A stretch of DNA of 64,000 bases from Bolinopsis microptera (Eukaryota > Ctenophora > Tentaculata > Lobata > Bolinopsidae). The notes under the pieces are model-generated. The model was not told the origin of the DNA, did not search any database, and was given only the letters and a program-made list of their open reading frames with translations. The stretch covers positions 18,070,837-18,134,836 of the forward strand of contig NC_087073.1 of the NCBI RefSeq assembly GCF_026151205.1, written 5' to 3'. The position numbers and the translations under genes are program-made. Each line of letters begins with the position of its first letter. Within the stretch, counting starts at the first letter, position 1. This document shows, in pieces, positions 1,288 through 63,081 of this stretch.

Positions 1288-22404
<21,117 letters not shown>

Positions 22405-52600: not shown

Positions 52601-55600
52601 CGGCAGGTTTATTTCTAGTTCAAAATATTCCAATTCAATTTTAACCATGGATAAAACGGGCTAAAAAAAACGCGTTGTACTACAGAGCTACAGCTAGGGG
52701 TACTTTAAGTTTATAAAATATGATAGGAGGGGAGTATAACGGGTGGTACCAGTTCCATATTTTTATTTGAAATAAAACATCGCCGATGAGTTGCGAACGT
52801 GAACGTTTTTATATTAAACTCTACTAGACAGCGCCAGCTTCTCACTTGTCTATGAACTTTATAAAACAATGGACAGTCTGAGGTCCCCGTGTGAGTTAGA
52901 TTCAAGCCGGATCAAGTTTGATCAATATAATACTTTTTTTTTTCTTCTTTTTTTTTAAAGAGAGGCTGGGCCTGGTTGGCCCACGAGAGGATAGCATATG
53001 GATGCTTTGCCTACCTCTGGGGTATGGCAGTCCTGTGGGAGGATGCCAGTGGAATCAAGATGTGTAATCACGGATGATGGTAAGTTTTGTGGGGTGTGTT
53101 ATAGATAAACGCTTAAGTGGTGGTTGAGTGTGGAAGAGAGGGGCGAAACAAGACGGCGTTAAAGTAGTCGCTATGTTACACCTGTCTGGTCCAACTCCTC
53201 CGGCACCACTAAGCGTTTAGTGTGGTTTGTAAAGTTGACAATGGTGGAGATGTGTTGGTTGTCGAATATGTCATTGACAGAGAGGTAGTAGTCCCGGAAA
53301 TATTGACCTCTTATTTGGGCAATAGCCGGGCACTGTCCGAGAAAGTGTGAGACAGTCTCCTCTCCGTCGCCGCATTTAGGACAAGCACTTGTGTCTGATT
53401 TGTGAATGGTGTGTAGGTGTTTGTTGAGGCCACAATGTCCCGTGATGAGGTGCACTGCAGTTCTGTAATTTTGTCTGTTGTTACTGAGTGTAGTGTTGAG
53501 ATTTTTGATGATGTTGATGTTTTTATGTCCAAGTGTCAGTTTAGTGTGTCTGGGACCATTAGTAATCCATGATTCTTGATTAAGTTTTGTGACTTTGTCG
53601 TTGATCAGGCGTTTGATGTAAGATTGTGGAATTGGGCAATTCAAAGTGGATTCACTGGTTGTGCCATTTTTGGCCAGCTCGTCTGCTTTTTCATTACCCC
53701 ACAATCCGATGTGTGCTGCTATCCATCTGATCTCTAAGGTGTTAGTGGATCCGAGTGTATTGAGGGTGTCGTAGCAGTCTCTAGTAGTTCTACTCCTCGT
53801 TGAAGGTGAGGATATAGCTTGAATAGAGGAGAGACTGTCTGACCATATGATGATATGTGTGTTTGTGTAAGTTGATAGATATTTACAATATAATACTTAC
53901 ATTAACAGTAAACACAACATGAAATTTCGTTCTAAGTCTGTTTTATTGTCCCAAACTGGTCGAAGTTTCATTGTCATCTGGATTGTGGATCGGAACAGCA
54001 AAGAGAAAGATTTGGCAACATCAAAACATGTCACTTTATATTTTGTTGCTGGTCTGCAACGAGTTGTGGACTCTCTTCATTATCGTTATTTCTCATTACT
54101 CAATCTAATCTCTTAAACTGTTAACGATGAAGTGCTTCAGCGTAGTATTCTTCACGGTACTTCTCACCGCGGTGACTGGAGGATCTAAGATAAAGAACCT
54201 CAAAAATGATATTGCAACTCTAGAAGGCGCTTTTTCCTCAGTCCTTGAAGAAACAGAGTCGGCGATCGCAAACATGACAGCCCGAATAGACAAAATGGAG
54301 GCAGAACGAGTGAAACTGGATCAAGCACACGCCTGGCAAGCTCTCCACATGGCAGCAGCTGCTGCTTGCAGAGGAAGCACAGCTACTGGAGGCAGCGGAC
54401 CTTGGGGAAACGCTGTCATCGCTAAAGAAAACACGAGAAGTTGTACCGCTGTCTGCGGAGATACCGTGTTCAACCTGTGTGACGCTGACATCTCCGTCAG
54501 TGGTTACATTGGAAAAGCTCAGTCCTACTCACAGAGACTGGGACACTTCTTCAACTACGGGTGTGGAACTCCTGGGAACACGAACGAGAAGTTTGACGAG
54601 GTGAAAGCGGGAGGAGATGACGTGTTCAAAAATATCGACACCGGTAATTGGTACTACCGCTTTTGTTGCTGCAGGAAAGCTTAATGGCAATGAAATGTTA
54701 GCGCCGATAGATTGAACACTAGTTAATCAGATCATAGATGGTAGCCTTTTGATCGCTTCATTTTTGTGAAATAGTAGACATTTTTTGACAACAAATTGTT
54801 ATACAAATTTTCATTATACCGATACATTTGTTTTATTTCTCGTAATATAATGTAGACAAGAATGGAAAAACAACAAATTATACAAATGAGTCTAGCTAGT
54901 CACGATCCAAAGGAGATCACAATAAAAGGGTAATCATACAGCATACTCCAGCAGGGACTGACCTTGGCTTCCCATGCTCGTACCAAGAGAGCATAATGGT
55001 CTTGTCTCTGTTCCTCCACCTCTTCTTCTAGCACTGCCTCCTCGTCATCCACTATACTCCCTGTAACGGATATATATATATATATATAGGGGGGGATCAT
55101 GTTATTTTTTGTCCGTTTTTGTCCGTTAATTTTTGTCCGTTTTGAAAATATAGCTGCCAAACGGACAAAAACGGACAAAAACGGACAAAAATTGTAACTT
55201 TTGATTTAAATTTTCTCCACAATTTGTAACAGGCTATCTGCAGAAATGGGTAGCCCGGTTAATGACCAAGGTCCTTCCTCAAACTTTTAATCTTCAATTA
55301 GGCACAAAGAATAGTCTACACATTTTTTAATAACATAAAAAGGGATGAAAAGTTTTATTACTGGAGAGTAAAACTTTGTTAAACACAAAGATTCTTGAGC
55401 ACATTTTGAGTCAGACTCAAATGCGCTTAAAAACATTTTAGTATATAACAATAAATTATGTTAACAATAACACCAACAATAATTATAAATTGAACAAATT
55501 ATTGAGAGATGAAAGAGAGGAAAAGGAGGAGGGGGGACTGAGGAGGGGGACTGAGGAGGGAGAGGAGGGGGGCTGAGGAGGAGTGAGACTGAGAAGGAGA

Positions 55601-58600
55601 ACTGAGGAGGAGGAATGAATAGGAGGAGGAGGAGAAGAAGGACTCAAGAGGAAGAGGACCCAAGAGGAGGAGGACCCAGGAGGAGGACCCAGGAAAAGGC
55701 CCCATGAGGAGGACTGGGGAGGAGGAGGACCGATGAGGACTGATGAGGACTGATAAAGAGGACTAAGGACGAGGAGGAGGAGGAGGAGGAGAAGGACTGA
55801 GGAGTGAGGAGGAGGACTGATGAGGAGAAGGAGGTGTATGAGGAGGATGAGGAGAAAGGAGATGAAGGATGAGGATAAGGAGGACTGAGGAGGAGGACTG
55901 GTGAAGAGGACTGATGAGGAGGAGGACTGAGAAGGGGAGGACTTAGGAGGACTGAGGAGGGGAGGACTTAGGAGGAAGAGGAGGATTGAGGAGGAGGAGG
56001 ACTGAGGAGTAGAAGGAGGAAGAAGACTGAGGAGGATCAGGAGGACCCAGGAGGAGGAAGAGGAGGAGGACTGAGGAGGAGAAGGAGGACCCAGGAGGAG
56101 GAACCAGGAAGAAGAGGAGGACTGAGAAGGAGGACTGAGAAGGAGAAGGAGGACTGATGAGGAGGATGAGGATGAGGAGGAGGGTGACTGGGGAAAGGAT
56201 TGAGGAGGAGGAGGAAGACTGAGGAGGAGGAAGAGGAGAAGGACTGAGGAGGAGAAGGACTGAGGAGAAGGAAGAGGAGGACTGAGGAGGAGGACCCAGG
56301 AGGATGAGGACACAGGAAAAGGCCCCAGAAGGAGGAGGAGGACTGAGGAGGACTGAGGAGGAGGACTGGTGAGGAAAAAGAGGAGGACCCAGGAGGAGAA
56401 GGAGGAGGAGGAGGATAACTGAGGAGGAGGAGAAGGACTGAGGAGGAGAAGAGGGATCCAGGAGGAGAACCCAGGAGGAGGAGGAGGAGGACTGAGGAGG
56501 AGGACTAAGGAGAAGGAGGACTGAGGAGGAGGATGAGGAGGAGGGTGACTGGGGAAAGGACTGAGAAGGACTGAGGAGGAGAATGCGGACTGAGGAGGAG
56601 GAACCAGGAAAAGGAGGAGGAGGAGGAGGAGAAGGACTGAGGAGTGAGGAGGAGGACTGATGAGGAGGATGAGGATGAGGAGGAGGGTGACTGGGGGAGG
56701 ACTAAGGAATATGAGGAAGACTGAGGAGGAGGAGGAAGAGGAGAAGGACTGAGGAGGAGAAGGACTGAGGAGGAGAAGGACTGAGGAGGAGAAGCAGGAG
56801 GAGGAGGACCCAGGAGGATGAGGACCCAGGAGGAGGACCCAGGAAACGGCCCCAGGAGGAGGAGGAGGAGGACTGGGGAGAAGGAGGACTGTTGAGGACG
56901 AGGAGGAGTAAAAGAAGGACTGAGGAGGGGAGGAGGAAGAGGACTGAGGATGATCAGGAAGACCCAGGAGGAGGAGGACCCAGGAGGAGAGGAGGAGGAG
57001 GACTGAGGAGGATGACTGAGGAGGAGGAGGACTGAGGAGGAGGAGGAGGACTGAGAAGGAGGAGGACTGAGGAGGAGGAGGACTGAGGAGGAGAAGCAGG
57101 AGGAGGAGGACCCAGGAGGATGAGGACCCAGGAGGAGGACCCAGGAAACGGCCCCAGGAGGAGGAGGAGGAGGACTGGGGAGAAGGAGGACTGTTGAGGA
57201 CGAGGAGGAGTAAAAGAAGGACTGAGGAGGGGAGGAGGAAGAGGACTGAGGAGGATCAGGAAGACCCAGGAGGAGAAGGACCCAGGAGGAGGACCCAGGA
57301 GGAGGAGGAGGAGGACTGAAGAGGATGACTGAGGAGGAGGACTGAGGAGGAGGAGGAGGACTGAGAAGGAGGAGGACTGAGGAGGAGGAGGACTGAGGAG
57401 GAGGAGGACTGAGGAGGAGGAGGAGGAGTGAATAGGAGGAGGGGGACTGGGCAGGACTGAGGAGGAGGAGGACTGAGGAAAAGGATGAGGAGGACTGAGA
57501 AGGAGGACTGAGCTGAGGAGGAGGACTGAGGACTGAGGAGGAAGAGGAGGAGGATGAAGAGGAGGTGGACCCAAGAGGAGGAGGTCCCAGGAGGAGGACC
57601 CAGGAGGAGGACTCAGGAGGAGGAGGAGGATGACTGAGGAAGACTGAGGAGGAGGAGGAGGAGGAGGAGGAGGAAGCTTATAAATATTATTTCCATTTTT
57701 GTTATTTTTTGTCCGTTTTTGTCCCCCCAGGAGGAGGAGGAGGAGAAGGATGACTGAGGAGGAGGACTGAGGAGGACTGAGAAGGAGGAGGACTGAGGAG
57801 TACTGAGGAGGATCGCTGAGGAGGATCGCTGAGGAGGATGGCTGAGGAGGATGGCTGAGGAGGATGACTGAGGAGGATGACTGAGAGGGAGGAGGAGGAG
57901 AACTGAGGAGGAGGAGGAGAAAGAGGACCCAGGAGAAGGACTCAGGAGAAAGAGGAGGAGGAGGACTAAGAAGGAGGAATGAGGAGGACTCAGAAGGAGG
58001 AATGAGAAGGAGGAGAACTGAGGAGGAGGAGGAGGAGGACTGAATAGGAGGAGGAGGGGGACTGGGGGAGGACTGAGGAGGAGGAGGACTGACGTGAAGG
58101 ATGAGGAGGAGGACTAAGGAGAAGGACTGAGGACTGAGGAGGAAGAGGAGGAGGATGAAGAGGAGGAGGAGGACCCAGGAGGACGAGGACTGAGGAGGAT
58201 GATGAGGACTGCAGAGGAGGAGGACTGAGGAGGACTGAGGAGGACTGAGGAGGACTGAGGAGGACTGAGGAGGATGGCTGAGGAGGATGACTGAGAGGGA
58301 GGGGGAGGAGGAGGAGGAGGACTCAGGAAGAGGACTCAGGAGGAGGACTCAGGAGCAGGACTCAGGAGCAGGACTCAGGAGGACTGAGAAGGAGGAGGAC
58401 TGAAGAGAACTGAGGAGGATGAGGAGGAGGACTGAATAGAAGGAGGAGGAGGGCGACTGGGGGAGGACTGAGGAGGAGGACTGAAGAGGACTGAGGAGAA
58501 GGATGAGGAGGAGGACTGAGGAGAAGGACTGAGGACTGAGGAGGAAGAGGAGGAGGATGAAGAGGAGGAGGAGGAGGACTGAGGAGGAGGACCCAGGAGG

Positions 58601-58708
58601 AGGACTCAGGAGGAGGAGGACTGAGGAGGAGGACTGAGGAGGATGACTGAGGAGGTGGAGGAGGAGGAGGAGGAGGAGGAGGAGGAGGAGGAGGAGGAGG
58701 AGGAGGAG

Positions 58709-58740
<32 letters not shown>

Positions 58741-59760
58741 TAAATGTTATTTCAATTTTTGTTATTTTTTGTCCGTTTTTGTCCGCTTTATTTTTTGTCC
58801 GTTTTGAAAATATAGCTGCCAAACGGACAAAAAACATGATCCCCCCCCCCCATATATATCACACATGACACACCTCACAGCTTGTATCACAAGAGCGGAG
58901 AATCCACTGATGTATGTATGTATGATTATGTCAATTTACAGGTGAGTTAAGTTACATTTAGGTGGTGACCGGAGACAAACCTTTGGTATTAGGACCAGTC
59001 TCTACCAGGGCAGTGTAACCAGCAGGAAGTTTACACTTGGAGCTGGAACTGGTGTTGTACTCTGCAGATTTGTGTGTTCTTTTAATATATTGTTTCAACT
59101 TTACATCGACAAATTCCGTGTGTTATTTATGTAAATGAGTATTTAAGTATTTCTATATTCCATTTCTATTGGAAACTATAAACGAAGGAGTTAGCGAGAA
59201 GTACCGAAAGAATAATTCTGATGTAAAATTTACCTGGCATGGGTAGCTGTTGTGGGGCGTCATGAACTGGGATCTTAGCGGCACTCCCAGCTCGTGATGA
59301 CGTCACACCTCCACCAACACTTTCGCTTTCACTTTCAGTCTCACTGAAAGCACCAATGGGGAGGATCTCGCTGAGCCGTTCCTCACTAGCAGCAGGGCTC
59401 ACAGCCGGTGTTCCTTCGTTGGGGGTCTCGCAAGGTGTGTATTTAAAGGGCTGGGTTCCGAAATTAGCTCTTACTCTAACGCCCTGAGTTGATGATTGTT
59501 AGTTATATAATAATCCGCTATTTTCTAAAAATTGCCCCAAAATACGTCCAACAACTCGTTTGATTAGCGTTGTTTTAATTTTTTAATCCATCAAATCTTC
59601 GTTGAATAACCGCTAATCTTGGGGTAACCTACCTTTCTGTGGACATGTATGACAGGGAAGAGACCAGCAGGAACGTCTTGCTGCTCCCCTTGTAGGACAG
59701 CACCGTTTAGGGTGAAGTAAACACGACCAACAGCTGGGTTTGCAGCTGTCCAGCCGATAC
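31413..59760 (-). CDS. HECTD4: HECTD4-type HECT E3 ubiquitin ligase (C-terminal part)
   Basis: Ubiquitin-protein ligase. I read 21 exons in transcription order: 59760-59633, 59483-59234, 59061-58981, 55060-54963, 47442-47235, 47026-46905, 45807-45653, 44688-44242, 44060-43865, 43717-43439, 43003-42843, 42648-42429, 42263-42099, 41981-41738, 41496-41302, 41073-40840, 40632-40463, 40053-39941, 33900-33753, 33572-31884, 31607-31413. Every junction keeps phase, giving about 1,831 codons and a TAG stop. Landmarks match vertebrate HECTD4: a SPRY-like segment, IRRRFRNEQERRSGLEQIKG, ELVQVETYLRQEGILVRYWY, IKFACNQERIPFSCPC, and a C-terminus with TCMFMIKLPQYSS and DPLSG. Human HECTD4 exceeds 4,000 residues, so the 5' part lies beyond the right edge. 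Confidence 0.92.
31884..33572 (-). CDS. HECTD4: HECTD4 large exon with most of the HECT domain
   Basis: A 563-codon exon, phase 0 both ends. It carries a helical pre-HECT region (LCPFTSHYEDDLLSTINSIY, LATSRPVLLLRCILATGHDL) and the HECT N-lobe with LLLFFGNLLGVAMRSDVPFA and FWTRILGEQIDFDTDLRQSD, equivalent to the family's glycine-Leu-Leu-Gly core. It ends in the C-lobe start FWNVVESLSQEDLRKLIKFA and SCPCQ at donor gtactt. The catalytic Cys is not here but in the last exon. Confidence 0.94.
33753..33900 (-). CDS. HECTD4: HECTD4 exon between host intron and HECT exon
   Basis: Acceptor gtgtttcag, donor gttagc. Encodes SDNSALISSAVELYATHKLL, then TEALLANVFSSCPGKSPLSK. Phase 2 in, phase 0 out. Confidence 0.88.
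34580..35643 (+). CDS. GIY-YIG-fold nuclease-like protein nested in HECTD4 intron
   Basis: Two exons, 34580-34772 and 35261-35643, joined at ATA G|GG to give a 191-residue protein. The joined frame has the GIY-YIG order: GLY (52-54), then YVG (77-79), then R88, H92, E133 and N145 (RSFYQRFYEH; YLESVLLEVWDFPLN). These are the residues that bind DNA and metal in GIY-YIG endonucleases, so the fold may be active. The donor (gtgcag) is weak; gtgaac 18 bases later breaks the frame. No partner domain or signal peptide is seen. The function is unknown; GIY-YIG proteins include homing, repair and restriction enzymes. It lies antisense within the host intron. Confidence 0.55.
35778..37122. mobile_element. 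Inverted-repeat element with GTTCAGTTGTC ends
   Basis: Ends gacaactgaacccaatt at 35778 and complement aattgggttcagttgtc ending 37122. The same motif repeats subterminally (near 35870 on the left and at 36950, 36970 and 37020 on the right). About 1.35 kb, containing a decayed LINE-like fragment. No transposase; family unknown. Confidence 0.5.
36602..36790 (+). pseudogene. Decayed LINE-like C-terminal fragment
   Basis: Reads GKRLRGRLRKGWMACVLEDA then a stop, and in the next frame VDNISRDAVKQLALKRVEHR. Basic Gly-Lys-Arg then Trp-Met-x-Cys-Val motifs are typical of the C-terminal tail of non-LTR retrotransposon polyproteins. The frameshift shows it is dead. Confidence 0.35.
37726..37733 (+). promoter_or_regulatory. 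TATA-box-like element of lectin gene A
   Basis: TATAAATA 70 bases before the start codon of the first lectin-like gene. The same element, with the same flank (agcgactagtccc), precedes the third copy at 39117-39124, so promoter and gene were duplicated together. Confidence 0.45.
37803..38416 (+). CDS. H-type-lectin-like secreted protein A
   Basis: Two exons, 37803-37920 and 38136-38416, 132 residues. Residues 1-16 (MQFCWLVVLIALAGAD) are a signal peptide. Then a Cys pair (CAKVCSGTTG) and a lectin-like domain: MYTDVDISRCGF, TSLEGIGDQWRVVGITSVYS, FRVFV, and WNVDWIAVGFIC at the end. The layout (Asp-Val-Asp, SLEG..W...G, F.V, W.V.WIA.G) resembles the H-type lectin fold known in secreted invertebrate recognition proteins; carbohydrate binding is inferred. 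It is a tandem paralogue of the gene at 39196-39811 and lies antisense in a HECTD4 intron. Confidence 0.75.
38591..38708 (+). pseudogene. Broken lectin-like copy B (first exon only)
   Basis: Homologous to the first exon of the flanking lectin genes (MQYFCLVVLFTLTGADITIL) with a premature TAA at 38657-38659, followed by the same CAKVCSGTTG and a donor. No second exon follows before copy C. It is a dead duplicate. Confidence 0.8.
39117..39124 (+). promoter_or_regulatory. TATA-box-like element of lectin gene C
   Basis: TATAAATA 72 bases before the start of copy C, in a duplicated flank. Motif and conserved spacing relative to copy A. Confidence 0.45.
39196..39811 (+). CDS. H-type-lectin-like secreted protein C
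   Basis: Exons 39196-39313 and 39531-39811, 132 residues, same architecture and splice phase as copy A. Signal peptide MEFCWLVVLFALAGAE, then CAKVCSGTTG, and the domain MYTDVDISGCGF, TSLEGTGNHWKTVGITSIYN, FRVFVIT and WNVDWIAVGFIC. First exons of A and C are almost identical while the second exons differ at many positions, suggesting gene conversion or selection on the binding domain. The intron-exon layout also matches. Confidence 0.78.
39941..41073 (-). CDS. HECTD4: HECTD4 exons before the 6-kb host intron
   Basis: Exons 41073-40840 (QPWFEMALTCNLILRNLVDK, RLIVICGLPTFYSR), 40632-40463 (INRLCCPYGGVVEGEIFVPS) and 40053-39941 (VVEVLQENKFLKGDVSGSNA, YCVVTLGPDLLC). The last carries AG into 33900, giving Ser, across a 6,040-bp intron that holds four other genes or pseudogenes. 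Confidence 0.9.
41302..43003 (-). CDS. HECTD4: HECTD4 exon cluster, central region
   Basis: Five exons: 43003-42843 (SPNKFTMDTVRLTDMKASYD, CPWI), 42648-42429 (VFAHNGIQGLARDGQPLRQ), 42263-42099 (YIETLIEVANTDQCPTSILL), 41981-41738 (MVPLFQELLFHCLAELIRLI) and 41496-41302 (basic, KRSKSGGDRAGLTKRRKLRV). Introns are 100-400 bp and all phases agree. The Cys/Leu-rich helical exons look like armadillo/HEAT-type repeats, which is inference. Confidence 0.88.
43439..44060 (-). CDS. HECTD4: HECTD4 exons, helical region
   Basis: Exons 44060-43865 and 43717-43439. The first encodes QMLYHENILANLYCRSALLA and ends at a strong gtgagt donor after LPLSGF; an open frame continues past it but breaks phase, so the gtgagt donor is chosen. 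The second encodes TEYVNMLSKELLRG and LKDALHKMISNSVTEECSLM. Confidence 0.82.
44242..44688 (-). CDS. HECTD4: HECTD4 exon, Thr-rich and Arg/Gly-rich linker
   Basis: Acceptor aaatacag, donor gtaggg; one base in to complete a codon and two out. It encodes a Thr/Pro run, PPPRGAGGRGRGMRTRNR, then NLIPSSEYPPENLMILE and a Ser homopolymer, ending DPRLCKLNLIEQ. Low complexity, assigned by phase and position between strongly conserved exons. Confidence 0.75.
45601..45660. repeat. 20-bp triplet repeat at a HECTD4 splice donor
   Basis: Three exact copies of gcagttaccaacctgtgcac. The first copy in transcription order holds the exon end and its donor; the others duplicate it inside the intron. Confidence 0.95.
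45653..45807 (-). CDS. HECTD4: HECTD4 exon with triplicated splice donor
   Basis: Acceptor cccctcag, phase 0 in, two bases (AG) out. Encodes SNELVQVETYLRQEGILVRY then WYPLAVLERPIHHQMSA, a highly conserved HECTD4 stretch. The donor cacag|gttggt is inside a 20-bp unit repeated three times (45601-45660), so three equivalent donors exist at 45653, 45633 and 45613. Only the first keeps phase with the next exon. Confidence 0.88.
46905..47442 (-). CDS. HECTD4: HECTD4 exons after the 7.5-kb host intron
   Basis: Exons 47442-47235 and 47026-46905. They encode VFPVIRRRFRNEQERRSG, IACQTVDFLYEDNGG, LPTLDDIKEDLAKFTI, and across the junction DRIRTGMTVVIKP to YGLHGIVLAVDY, all in the order known for HECTD4. 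Donor gtcagt (47234) and donor gtgagt (46904). Confidence 0.9.
47443..49600. other. Start of the 7.5-kb HECTD4 host intron
   Basis: No supported gene to about 48920. It holds a gaagaagaagaag run near 47510 and then the 73-bp minisatellite. Confidence 0.4.
48926..49210. repeat. 73-bp minisatellite, about 3.9 copies
   Basis: Copies begin at 48926, 48999, 49072 and 49145 with gttccttttgttt and share aatacaaagaattcctaat and ccacttcaaatgaag. Near-identical, within a HECTD4 intron. Two short homologous tails of the array feed misleading open frames. Confidence 0.92.
49625..50090 (+). CDS. Small membrane protein, 96 residues, nested gene
   Basis: Two exons, 49625-49709 and 49885-50090, donor gtgagt and acceptor cacctccccag, one base carried. 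The N-terminus is MSFHIANILELCVNILQHKD; exon 2 gives RRLPSPTLLQMLLVTFIYLT, a long hydrophobic segment and a second (HYEIYVLLVGTTPALAYLW), then a TRGIAWDSWSLSEFVWK tail. So there are one or two membrane helices. I do not recognise the family. An AATAAA follows at 50219-50224. It lies antisense in a HECTD4 intron and was not visible as a single open frame because of its intron. Confidence 0.6.
50219..50224 (+). terminator. AATAAA polyadenylation signal of nested membrane protein
   Basis: AATAAA about 130 bases after the stop at 50090. Motif and distance only. Confidence 0.4.
50626..52388 (+). CDS. Secreted sushi/CCP-like protein, 308 residues, nested gene
   Basis: Six exons: 50626-50794, 50969-51103, 51231-51428, 51711-51873, 51998-52179, 52309-52388; all phases agree. 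Signal peptide MLLVLLISVLLVSVVSGS. The body has Cys-rich modules with sushi-like signs: NGASIEVRCVNP, EYTVTCRNGYVRAYKDDGDN then FTCKN, and GAKLYFDCYGGSAN, ending WWNKKVPECKW. In complement control modules a Tyr/Val-x-Cys, a Gly-Tyr and a Trp before the last Cys recur in this way. The introns are mostly phase 1, the phase typical of shuffled extracellular modules. Possibly an immune or adhesion factor; that is inference. Confidence 0.65.
52936..53885 (-). mobile_element. 5'-truncated LINE with RNase H and target duplication
   Basis: Minus-strand LINE end of 950 bp flanked by a 13-bp duplication caatataatactt (52923-52935 and 53886-53898). The frame from the truncated end to the stop at 53171 has RNase H motifs (IIIWSDSLSSIQAI; WIAAHIGLWGNEKADELAKN) and a C-terminal Cys/His knuckle (CPKCGDGEETVSHFLGQC). 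A 3' UTR and an impure A-rich tail (poly-T on + strand at about 52936-52962) follow. The truncation and single long frame point to a fairly young but inactive insertion in a HECTD4 intron. Confidence 0.85.
54127..54687 (+). CDS. Secreted coiled-coil and Cys-rich protein, nested gene
   Basis: Single-exon gene of 185 residues from ATG 54127 to TAA 54685-54687. A signal peptide (MKCFSVVFFTVLLTAVTGG) is followed by a Leu/Glu heptad-like coiled coil (residues about 22-72, KIKNLKNDIATLEGAF) and a compact Cys-rich domain: RSCTAVCGDTVFNLCDAD, SGYIGKAQSYSQRLGHFFN, YGCG, and WYYRFCCCRKA at the end. A coiled coil leading to a compact extracellular domain suggests an oligomeric secreted lectin-type or defence protein; I do not recognise the family. 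It lies antisense in a HECTD4 intron just past the LINE insertion. Confidence 0.7.
54963..55060 (-). CDS. HECTD4: HECTD4 exon, acidic helix
   Basis: Acceptor cgttacag and donor gtcagt on the minus strand; needs one carried base, ends phase 0. Encodes SIVDDEEAVLEEEVEEQRQD then HYALLVRAWEAK, which joins VFPVIRRRF of the next exon 7.5 kb away, as in vertebrate HECTD4. Its acceptor is only 29 bases from the edge of the inserted GGA-carrying element. Confidence 0.88.
55089..58851. mobile_element. GTCCG-ended element carrying a GGA minisatellite
   Basis: Ends are poly-G/C plus GGGGGATCATGTT and multiple tttttgtccgt motifs in opposite orientation at 55089-55190 and about 58745-58851, each also enclosing a palindrome around gaaaatatagctgccaaac. 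The flanks are tatata repeats. The inside (55500-58740) is almost entirely G and A on the + strand with repeated gactgaggagga and ggacccaggagga motifs. It fills a HECTD4 intron. No transposase; origin unknown. Confidence 0.7.
55505..58736 (+). repeat. 3.2-kb polypurine GGA minisatellite
   Basis: Irregular GGA-based array with ct or ccc interruptions. A block of about 170 bp near 56785-56950 recurs almost unchanged near 57080-57260. A tttttgtccg fragment sits inside at about 57690-57725. Apparent Ser/Pro/Leu-rich reading frames on the minus strand are low-complexity artefacts. Confidence 0.93.
59234..59760 (-). CDS. HECTD4: HECTD4 exons, SPRY-like segment
   Basis: Exons 59760-59633 and 59483-59234 joined in phase 0. 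They read GIGWTAANPAVGRVYFTLNG, LFPVIHVHRK, then VRANFGTQPFKYTPCETPNE, the closing strands of a SPRY/B30.2-like fold, followed by an acidic Ser-rich linker (SETESESESVGGG). The first exon needs one carried base, so another exon lies upstream; I did not find it within the window. Confidence 0.85.
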
Positions 59761-62689: not shown

Positions 62690-63081
62690 TGCCGTTTTTG
62701 TCCTTTAATTTTTGTCCGTTTGGTACCTATATTTTCAAAACGGACAAAAATTAACGGACAAAAACGGACAAAAATTGTAACTTTTTATTTAAATTTTCTC
62801 CACAATTTGTAACAGGCTATCTGCAGAAATGGGTAGCCCGGTTAATGACCATGGTCCTTTCTCAAATTGTTAATCCTCAATTAGGTACTAAGAATAGTCT
62901 ACACATTTTTTGGAGGAGGAGGAAGACTGAGGAGGAGAAGGAGGACTTATGAAGAGGAGGAGGATGACTGAGGAGGAGGACTGATGAGGAGGACCCAGGA
63001 GGAGGAGGACTGAGGAGGATGACTAATATAAGGAGGAAGAGGTACCAAACGGACAAAAACGGACAAAAAACATGATCCCCC
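62690..63081. mobile_element. Small relative of the GTCCG/GGA element
   Basis: Ends carry tttttgtccg motifs at 62690-62785 and 63045-63081 and finish in catgatccccct, as in the large copy. The 130 bp after the left end (caatttgtaacaggctatct onward) match 55190-55330 closely, and a short GGA array of about 125 bp follows. So one family exists in two sizes. Confidence 0.7.

Follow-up and report, generated by a model that had tools for sequence, protein, structure and literature searches.

Probable non-autonomous DNA transposons with G-run termini carrying a GGA-type array in the ctenophore Bolinopsis microptera

The Y element and its truncated relative

The window analysed here is a stretch of 64,000 nucleotides of the Bolinopsis microptera genome (C2:18070837-18134836), and searches covered the whole assembly of 264.65 Mb in 232 contigs, where eleven contigs among C1 to C13 are 15-26 Mb each. 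The window contains an element, termed Y, with the following features; a relative of it lies downstream.

55089..58851, + strand: Y element, both ends present, 3763 bp, inverted G-run/C-run termini
55082..55088, no strand: left target duplication ATATATA
58852..58858, no strand: right target duplication ATATATA
55089..55200, + strand: Y left end, G7-ATCATGTT, with subterminal GTCCG / CGGAC hairpin
55191..55519, + strand: unique core of Y (median of 0.6% substitutions in 27 copies compared)
55520..57671, + strand: array A, GGAGGACT-type repeats, about 84.5% purine
57672..57728, + strand: degenerate internal right end (GGAAGCTTATAAATATTATTTCC...GTCCCCCC), which divides the array
57729..58731, + strand: array B, GGAGGACT-type repeats
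58732..58851, + strand: Y right-end module, GGAAGCATCTAAATG...CATGATC(11)
62692..63081, + strand: truncated Y relative, no left terminus, right end CATGATCCCCC

The left terminus of Y reads G7-ATCATGTTATTTTTTGTCCG and the right terminus, as its reverse complement, G11-ATCATGTTTTTTGTCCG, the final letters of the element being CGGACAAAAAACATGATC11. A hairpin of GTCCG/CGGAC repeats lies inside each end. The sequence-only reading had placed an element with terminal motifs in opposite orientation at 55089-58851, and the inverted G-run termini bear out both the coordinates and the orientation. The array, about 3.2 kb in total, is a degenerate, CT-rich repeat of the GGAGGACT type; at about 84.5% purine, and with CT dinucleotides numbering 82 in one block and 53 in the other, it is not the purine-only sequence that had been described. 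The only open reading frames of at least 150 aa in this copy are repeat-derived. An internal right end followed by further array, as seen here, also occurs at two other loci (L018 and L040). The flanking ATATATA duplication is weak taken alone because it is sited in an AT repeat.

The truncated relative matches Y over 220 bp at 90%, subterminal hairpin included, and has the right end and core together with an array of about 133 bp (62912-63044). It was previously given the same ends as Y; it begins within the GTCCG part (the span having been given as 62690-63081) without the G-run and ATCATG, so that only its right end is shared. The proposed 130 bp or so of common internal sequence holds when counted beyond the hairpin, and the array had been put at about 125 bp, slightly below the measured length. 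Elsewhere in the window are two nearly pure dinucleotide repeats, GT x 221 at 7791-8232 and AG x 180 at 9243-9603.

Dispersed copies, target duplications and array variation

The terminal motif GGGGATCATGTT-N0-20-TTTTGTCCG has 244+265 matches in the genome (509), against 0+0 for the reversed pattern, which disposes of the possibility that only the two copies in the window exist. GGGGGATCATG has 383+333 matches against 83+73 for its reversed pattern. The exact left core of Y is found in 35+27 copies, and a 22-bp marker of the right end, GGAAGCATCTAAATGTTATTTC, in 252+242 exact copies (494). At the first eight places of GGGGGATCATG an array adjoins in five; of the array-free places (L002, L006 and L008), one resembles a chance match and the other two consist of a minimal G-run unit. 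The minimal unit, around position 1500 of L002 and L008, has the form G(n)ATTACTCATGATC(n) with AGTATAT on both sides and almost no interior, and sits in a larger repeat common to both loci.

Thirty Y loci around the core (L009-L038) were read; of 250 candidates 40 were scored, and these are the 30 that scored best. Having been chosen as best matches, they are biased to copies near the window Y, and older copies are unrepresented. Their left flanks appear unrelated by eye. In these thirty the left G-run varies between 4 and 32 nucleotides, with a median of 11.5 (n=30), and ATCATG comes next. One locus, L032, also holds a 136-bp solo hairpin (1176-1311) in which a Y left end is joined to its reverse complement, between GTA/TAC repeats that resemble inverted copies of one another.

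Target duplications were assessed in 16 elements with both flanks in hand: eight Y, seven X (a second family, described below) and one unrelated G-run element in the window. Identical repeats of 5-7 bp lie directly outside the G-run and C-run in 14 of the 16, and in 13 of the 15 X and Y copies, compared with one repeat of at least 5 bp in 240 mismatched flank pairings. The two exceptions are L039, with no duplication, and L047, with one mismatch in six; L045, in which the left end was not found, and L028, which has lost its right terminus, were omitted from the count. Further 6-bp duplications were read by eye at L064 (TGTTAT), L065 (TACATA), L071 (GATATA) and L074 (ACTATT). The duplication length, often 6 bp, is not constant. 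Where a seventh base fails to match it is frequently a C on the left side, which could hide within the right C-run; 6 and 7 bp are therefore not always separable, and the variable length is partly accounted for. At L029 a Y copy flanked by GATTTA on either side lies inside what appears by eye to be a coding repeat of zinc-finger-like type, and the copy at L037 sits in a local satellite.

The unrelated G-run element, at 14025-14413 of the window, runs from G18-CCAAGTGGATATTTG... to ...ATATCTATCCCCC and has a 7-bp duplication, TAAAACA, and an internal 134-bp tandem repeat. Its presence suggests that several families of this genome have G-run termini in common. Two further termini adjoin X and Y insertions, a G-run followed by TGACATGTCTCC... 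at about 299-401 of L041 and ...GTCTCTTTTGT-C28 on the other strand at about 45-72 of L055; these are perhaps two more related families.

Among the best 30 of 40 scored, the Y arrays are collinear with that of the window in 30 of 30 loci, over lengths from 0.65 kb (L036) to about 2 kb. Divergence was compared in 27 of these copies, three having been dropped since the boundary string was absent. Substitutions have a median of 0.6% in the core. In the first 250 bp of array they amount to 2.1%, with gaps opening 1.3 times per 100 bp; across the first 900 bp the median is 7.3% and gaps open 1.7 times per 100 bp, to which misaligned repeats may contribute. Copies with both ends measure 1377 bp (L029), 1545 bp (L014), 3763 bp (window) and about 4.3 kb (L030 and L041). 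The short copies at L014 and L029 look like products of internal deletion, and some copies duplicate a block of about 1 kb of array, so that array lengths have changed through deletion as well as duplication. Since the arrays are collinear among copies whose cores differ by a median of 0.6%, the array was already in the progenitor of the Y copies compared, varying thereafter by small and large indels. The suggestion that it expands after insertion is not supported by an inherited, collinear array altered in both directions.

Some copies are rearranged further. At L025 and L036 the array continues into unrelated sequence within the 1.5 kb examined, and at C1:310909-315004 five right modules stand in tandem, a local amplification. 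By eye, a 397-aa reverse-transcriptase-like open reading frame lies within the GGA array of L039 (1218-2411; no Pfam match), and an RNase-H-like one is embedded in that of L048 (reverse complement, about 1600-2720). GGA arrays may serve as landing sites for such retrotransposon-like pieces.

A second carrier of the array

A second family, X, accounts for most of the surplus of right ends. Its order is G(n)-TGTCATGTCCGTCTATGTCCG, GGA array, the Y right end CATGATCCCCC, TATAACAGCAAAAATTG... and an outer right end, CGTGACAC(n). Exact X left ends number 153+160 (313), exact right ends 181+164 (345), exact inner segments 155+158 and left ends of an X0 type 30+14 (44), with zero matches for the control in each case.

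Pairing was scored for the places listed on C1 and C2, the input for modules being 95 marker places and 6 ends from the end-motif listings. On these contigs, 53 of 57 X left ends are followed on their own strand, no more than 12 kb away, by a right module that abuts an array (distance 301-3980 bp, median 2141), against 2/57 and 0/57 in the controls; three of the four unpaired left ends were read (L063-L065), and all three have the array. Viewed from the other side, an exact X left end precedes 59 of the 95 right modules; for the remaining 36, among which are Y copies, there is none within 12 kb. When X and X0-type left ends are taken together, 58 of 65 have an outer right end in inverted orientation no more than 12 kb away (2/65 for the wrong orientation), giving element lengths of 1.2-6.5 kb. 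Terminal inverted repeats (TIRs) are thus seen at both outer ends of the window Y, L014 and L029 and for these 58 of 65. By eye, 50 of 57 X inner segments listed on C1 and C2 adjoin a Y right end or marker. Among the others, L064-L067, L069 and L070 carry the array, with a mutated Y end in L066, L067, L069 and L070, and L068 is array-free. That the array is cargo of these ends, as had been proposed, is upheld by the 53 of 57 pairings; ends without arrays do occur, as a minority: three of the first eight places of GGGGGATCATG are array-free, and the X0 copies have no array.

X0 is an array-less element. One copy (L071, the same as L068 and L072) is 1317 bp long with the duplication GATATA, and another lies at L074, with the 6-bp duplication ACTATT. 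Compared with an array-bearing X (L049), X0 is 89% identical in its left 245 bp and 87% identical in its right 196 bp. A search with the X0 interior listed 43 matches, many of them partial, with 40 of 85 candidates scored.

The empty site of X0, GGGAATATAACAGC, is unbroken at three places (L071, L074 and L077). At L073 it is filled, reading GGGAATATAAC / TTAT...array...CATGATCCCCCC / TATAACAGC, with TATAAC on both sides. L075 and L079 have the identical left junction, GGGAATATAAC / TTAT...ATCACAC..., and then array. One additional base is retained in L066, L069 and L070 (CC-ATATAACAGC), so the duplication at the X0 site would be 7 bp. The array-less X0 copies, and the copy interrupted at this point between TATAAC repeats, establish X0 as the target of a Y-type insertion; a rearranged derivative went on to spread. 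The commonest form of X has lost the X0 interior left of the insertion point and any Y left end, so that the array begins right after ...ACAAACATTTTGAG of X0, and retains the array and Y's right end. In L073, L075 and L079 the insert opens at its left junction with sequence other than the G-run ATCATG end, so Y's own left terminus is not seen at the X0 site. Identity between X and Y arrays is no more than about 70-79% in alignment, which suggests that the hand-over predates the recent Y copies.

Interpretation and relation to known systems

Taken together, these results are best read as Y and X being non-autonomous DNA transposons of the cut-and-paste type, with the GGA array as internal cargo, a reading to which we give a probability of about 0.88. 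That the family is mobile, as the sequence-only reading had it, is borne out by hundreds of dispersed ends, by the 5-7 bp repeats flanking 13 of 15 X and Y copies and by the site found both filled and empty; target duplications and empty sites are what that reading had proposed to look for. Elements with G-run TIRs, GTCCG-rich subterminal hairpins and 6-7 bp target duplications would presumably be mobilised by a transposase encoded elsewhere, through cut-and-paste chemistry. The array would be copied along at each transposition, and its length would afterwards shift by deletion and duplication, with slippage or recombination probably behind the changes in both array and G-run length. The likely sequence of steps for X is that a Y-type element enters an array-less X0, one end is lost and the composite X multiplies. 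Neither a transposase nor an autonomous copy was found in L063-L065, L062, the X0 interiors or, by eye, locus open reading frames of at least 150 aa, and a 110-aa open reading frame of the X0 interior has no Pfam match. In L062, where the Y end lies 3 kb from the core, another inverted-repeat element appears to have inserted, and no autonomous partner was found in that region.

Three other explanations deserve consideration. The array could arise de novo and grow after every insertion, which would suit its widely varying lengths (301-3980 bp from left end to right module in X, 1377 bp to about 4.3 kb for Y copies with both ends) and the divergence of its first 900 bp far above that of the core; against this, all 30 Y loci read (the best of 40 scored) have an array start collinear with that of the window, substitutions in its first 250 bp reach just 2.1% and the short copies resemble internal deletions. 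Because the arrays are collinear we reject a purely de novo origin for these Y copies and regard it as very unlikely overall. A conventional satellite dispersed through unequal exchange or ectopic recombination, with the ends as passive flanks, would produce copies that run into unrelated sequence or appear chimeric, such as L036, L025 and L039, and local tandem amplification like that on C1. It would not be expected to yield the precise termini, the flanking repeats or the contrast of filled and empty sites, and we consider it very unlikely; the target duplications refute satellite-type exchange as the main mode, and it may account for single rearranged copies.

Rolling-circle elements (Helitrons or Helentrons) with central repeats are not expected to make TIR-type target duplications, and since such duplications were found, together with inverted termini at both outer ends, we reject this origin as extremely unlikely. 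What the two have in common is central tandem repeats between flank modules that bear hairpins, as described in part of the account of the oyster element Cg_HINE (PMC7492417). According to the same passages, Cg_HINE likewise occurs as dispersed combinations of flank module and array, some copies having two arrays, and is placed in the Helentron superfamily; X and Y instead have inverted termini and target duplications.

The arrangement had been called undescribed, which is wrong: MITEs and Helentrons carrying tandem repeats are published, as the relevant passages of three sources make plain (PMC9659126, PMC7492417, PMC4596501), and the first of these reviews MITEs, among other elements, as carriers or seeds of tandem repeats. 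It includes the Xenopus Xmix MITE with Xstir repeats and the satellite of the miDNA4 MITE, likewise cases of a non-autonomous TIR element spreading a tandem repeat. The sequences and hosts differ from ours, and in B. microptera the array is of GGA type and reaches about 4 kb, the termini are G-runs and one kind of array is common to two TIR families. Simple repeats, of a different type, are also found inside lepidopteran MITEs, whose (GTCY)n microsatellites the same review describes as hitchhiking. BrickBuilt of Porphyromonas gingivalis, as portrayed in a portion of PMC4596501, is similarly a MITE with an internal minisatellite (23 bp), and differs in being bacterial, with 19 copies in strain ATCC 33277.

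In the sections concerned of PMC3573991, Galileo, a foldback element of the P superfamily, has 7-bp duplications, internally repetitive ends, a variable number of tandem repeats and chimeric copies without matching duplications; its likeness to Y and X is one of features. Membership of the P superfamily is defined by a P-type transposase together with the duplication length. Duplications in the P superfamily are about 8 bp in general, according to a part of PMC3706591, against 7 bp in Galileo (PMC3573991, in part) and 5-7 bp, often 6, in X and Y. The Dada superfamily, as characterised in part of PMC3706591, has no TIRs, inserts into small RNA genes and makes 6-7 bp duplications; membership was considered and rejected, since X and Y have TIRs; the 6-7 bp length would fit. 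No description of poly-G transposon termini (4-32 G) was found in the literature searched, which implies nothing about other literature. Satellite-carrying elements were already known, and the case described here adds the same kind of array in a second TIR family, apparently handed over by Y insertion. A speculative extension, which we hold to be doubtful as a whole, is that the GGA array is a transferable, recombination-prone module allowing end swaps between unrelated TIR families, and that the G-runs are functional and grow longer in the course of transposition or afterwards, with cutting always at the border of G-run and target.

These families provide a fairly well-resolved case of satellite spread within a single genome, with an array-less host element, a nested insertion, the loss of an end and hundreds of composites. 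G-run termini of 4-32 nucleotides have a bearing on how a transposase locates its cut site, and the Y/X system on the dispersal of GGA-rich DNA.
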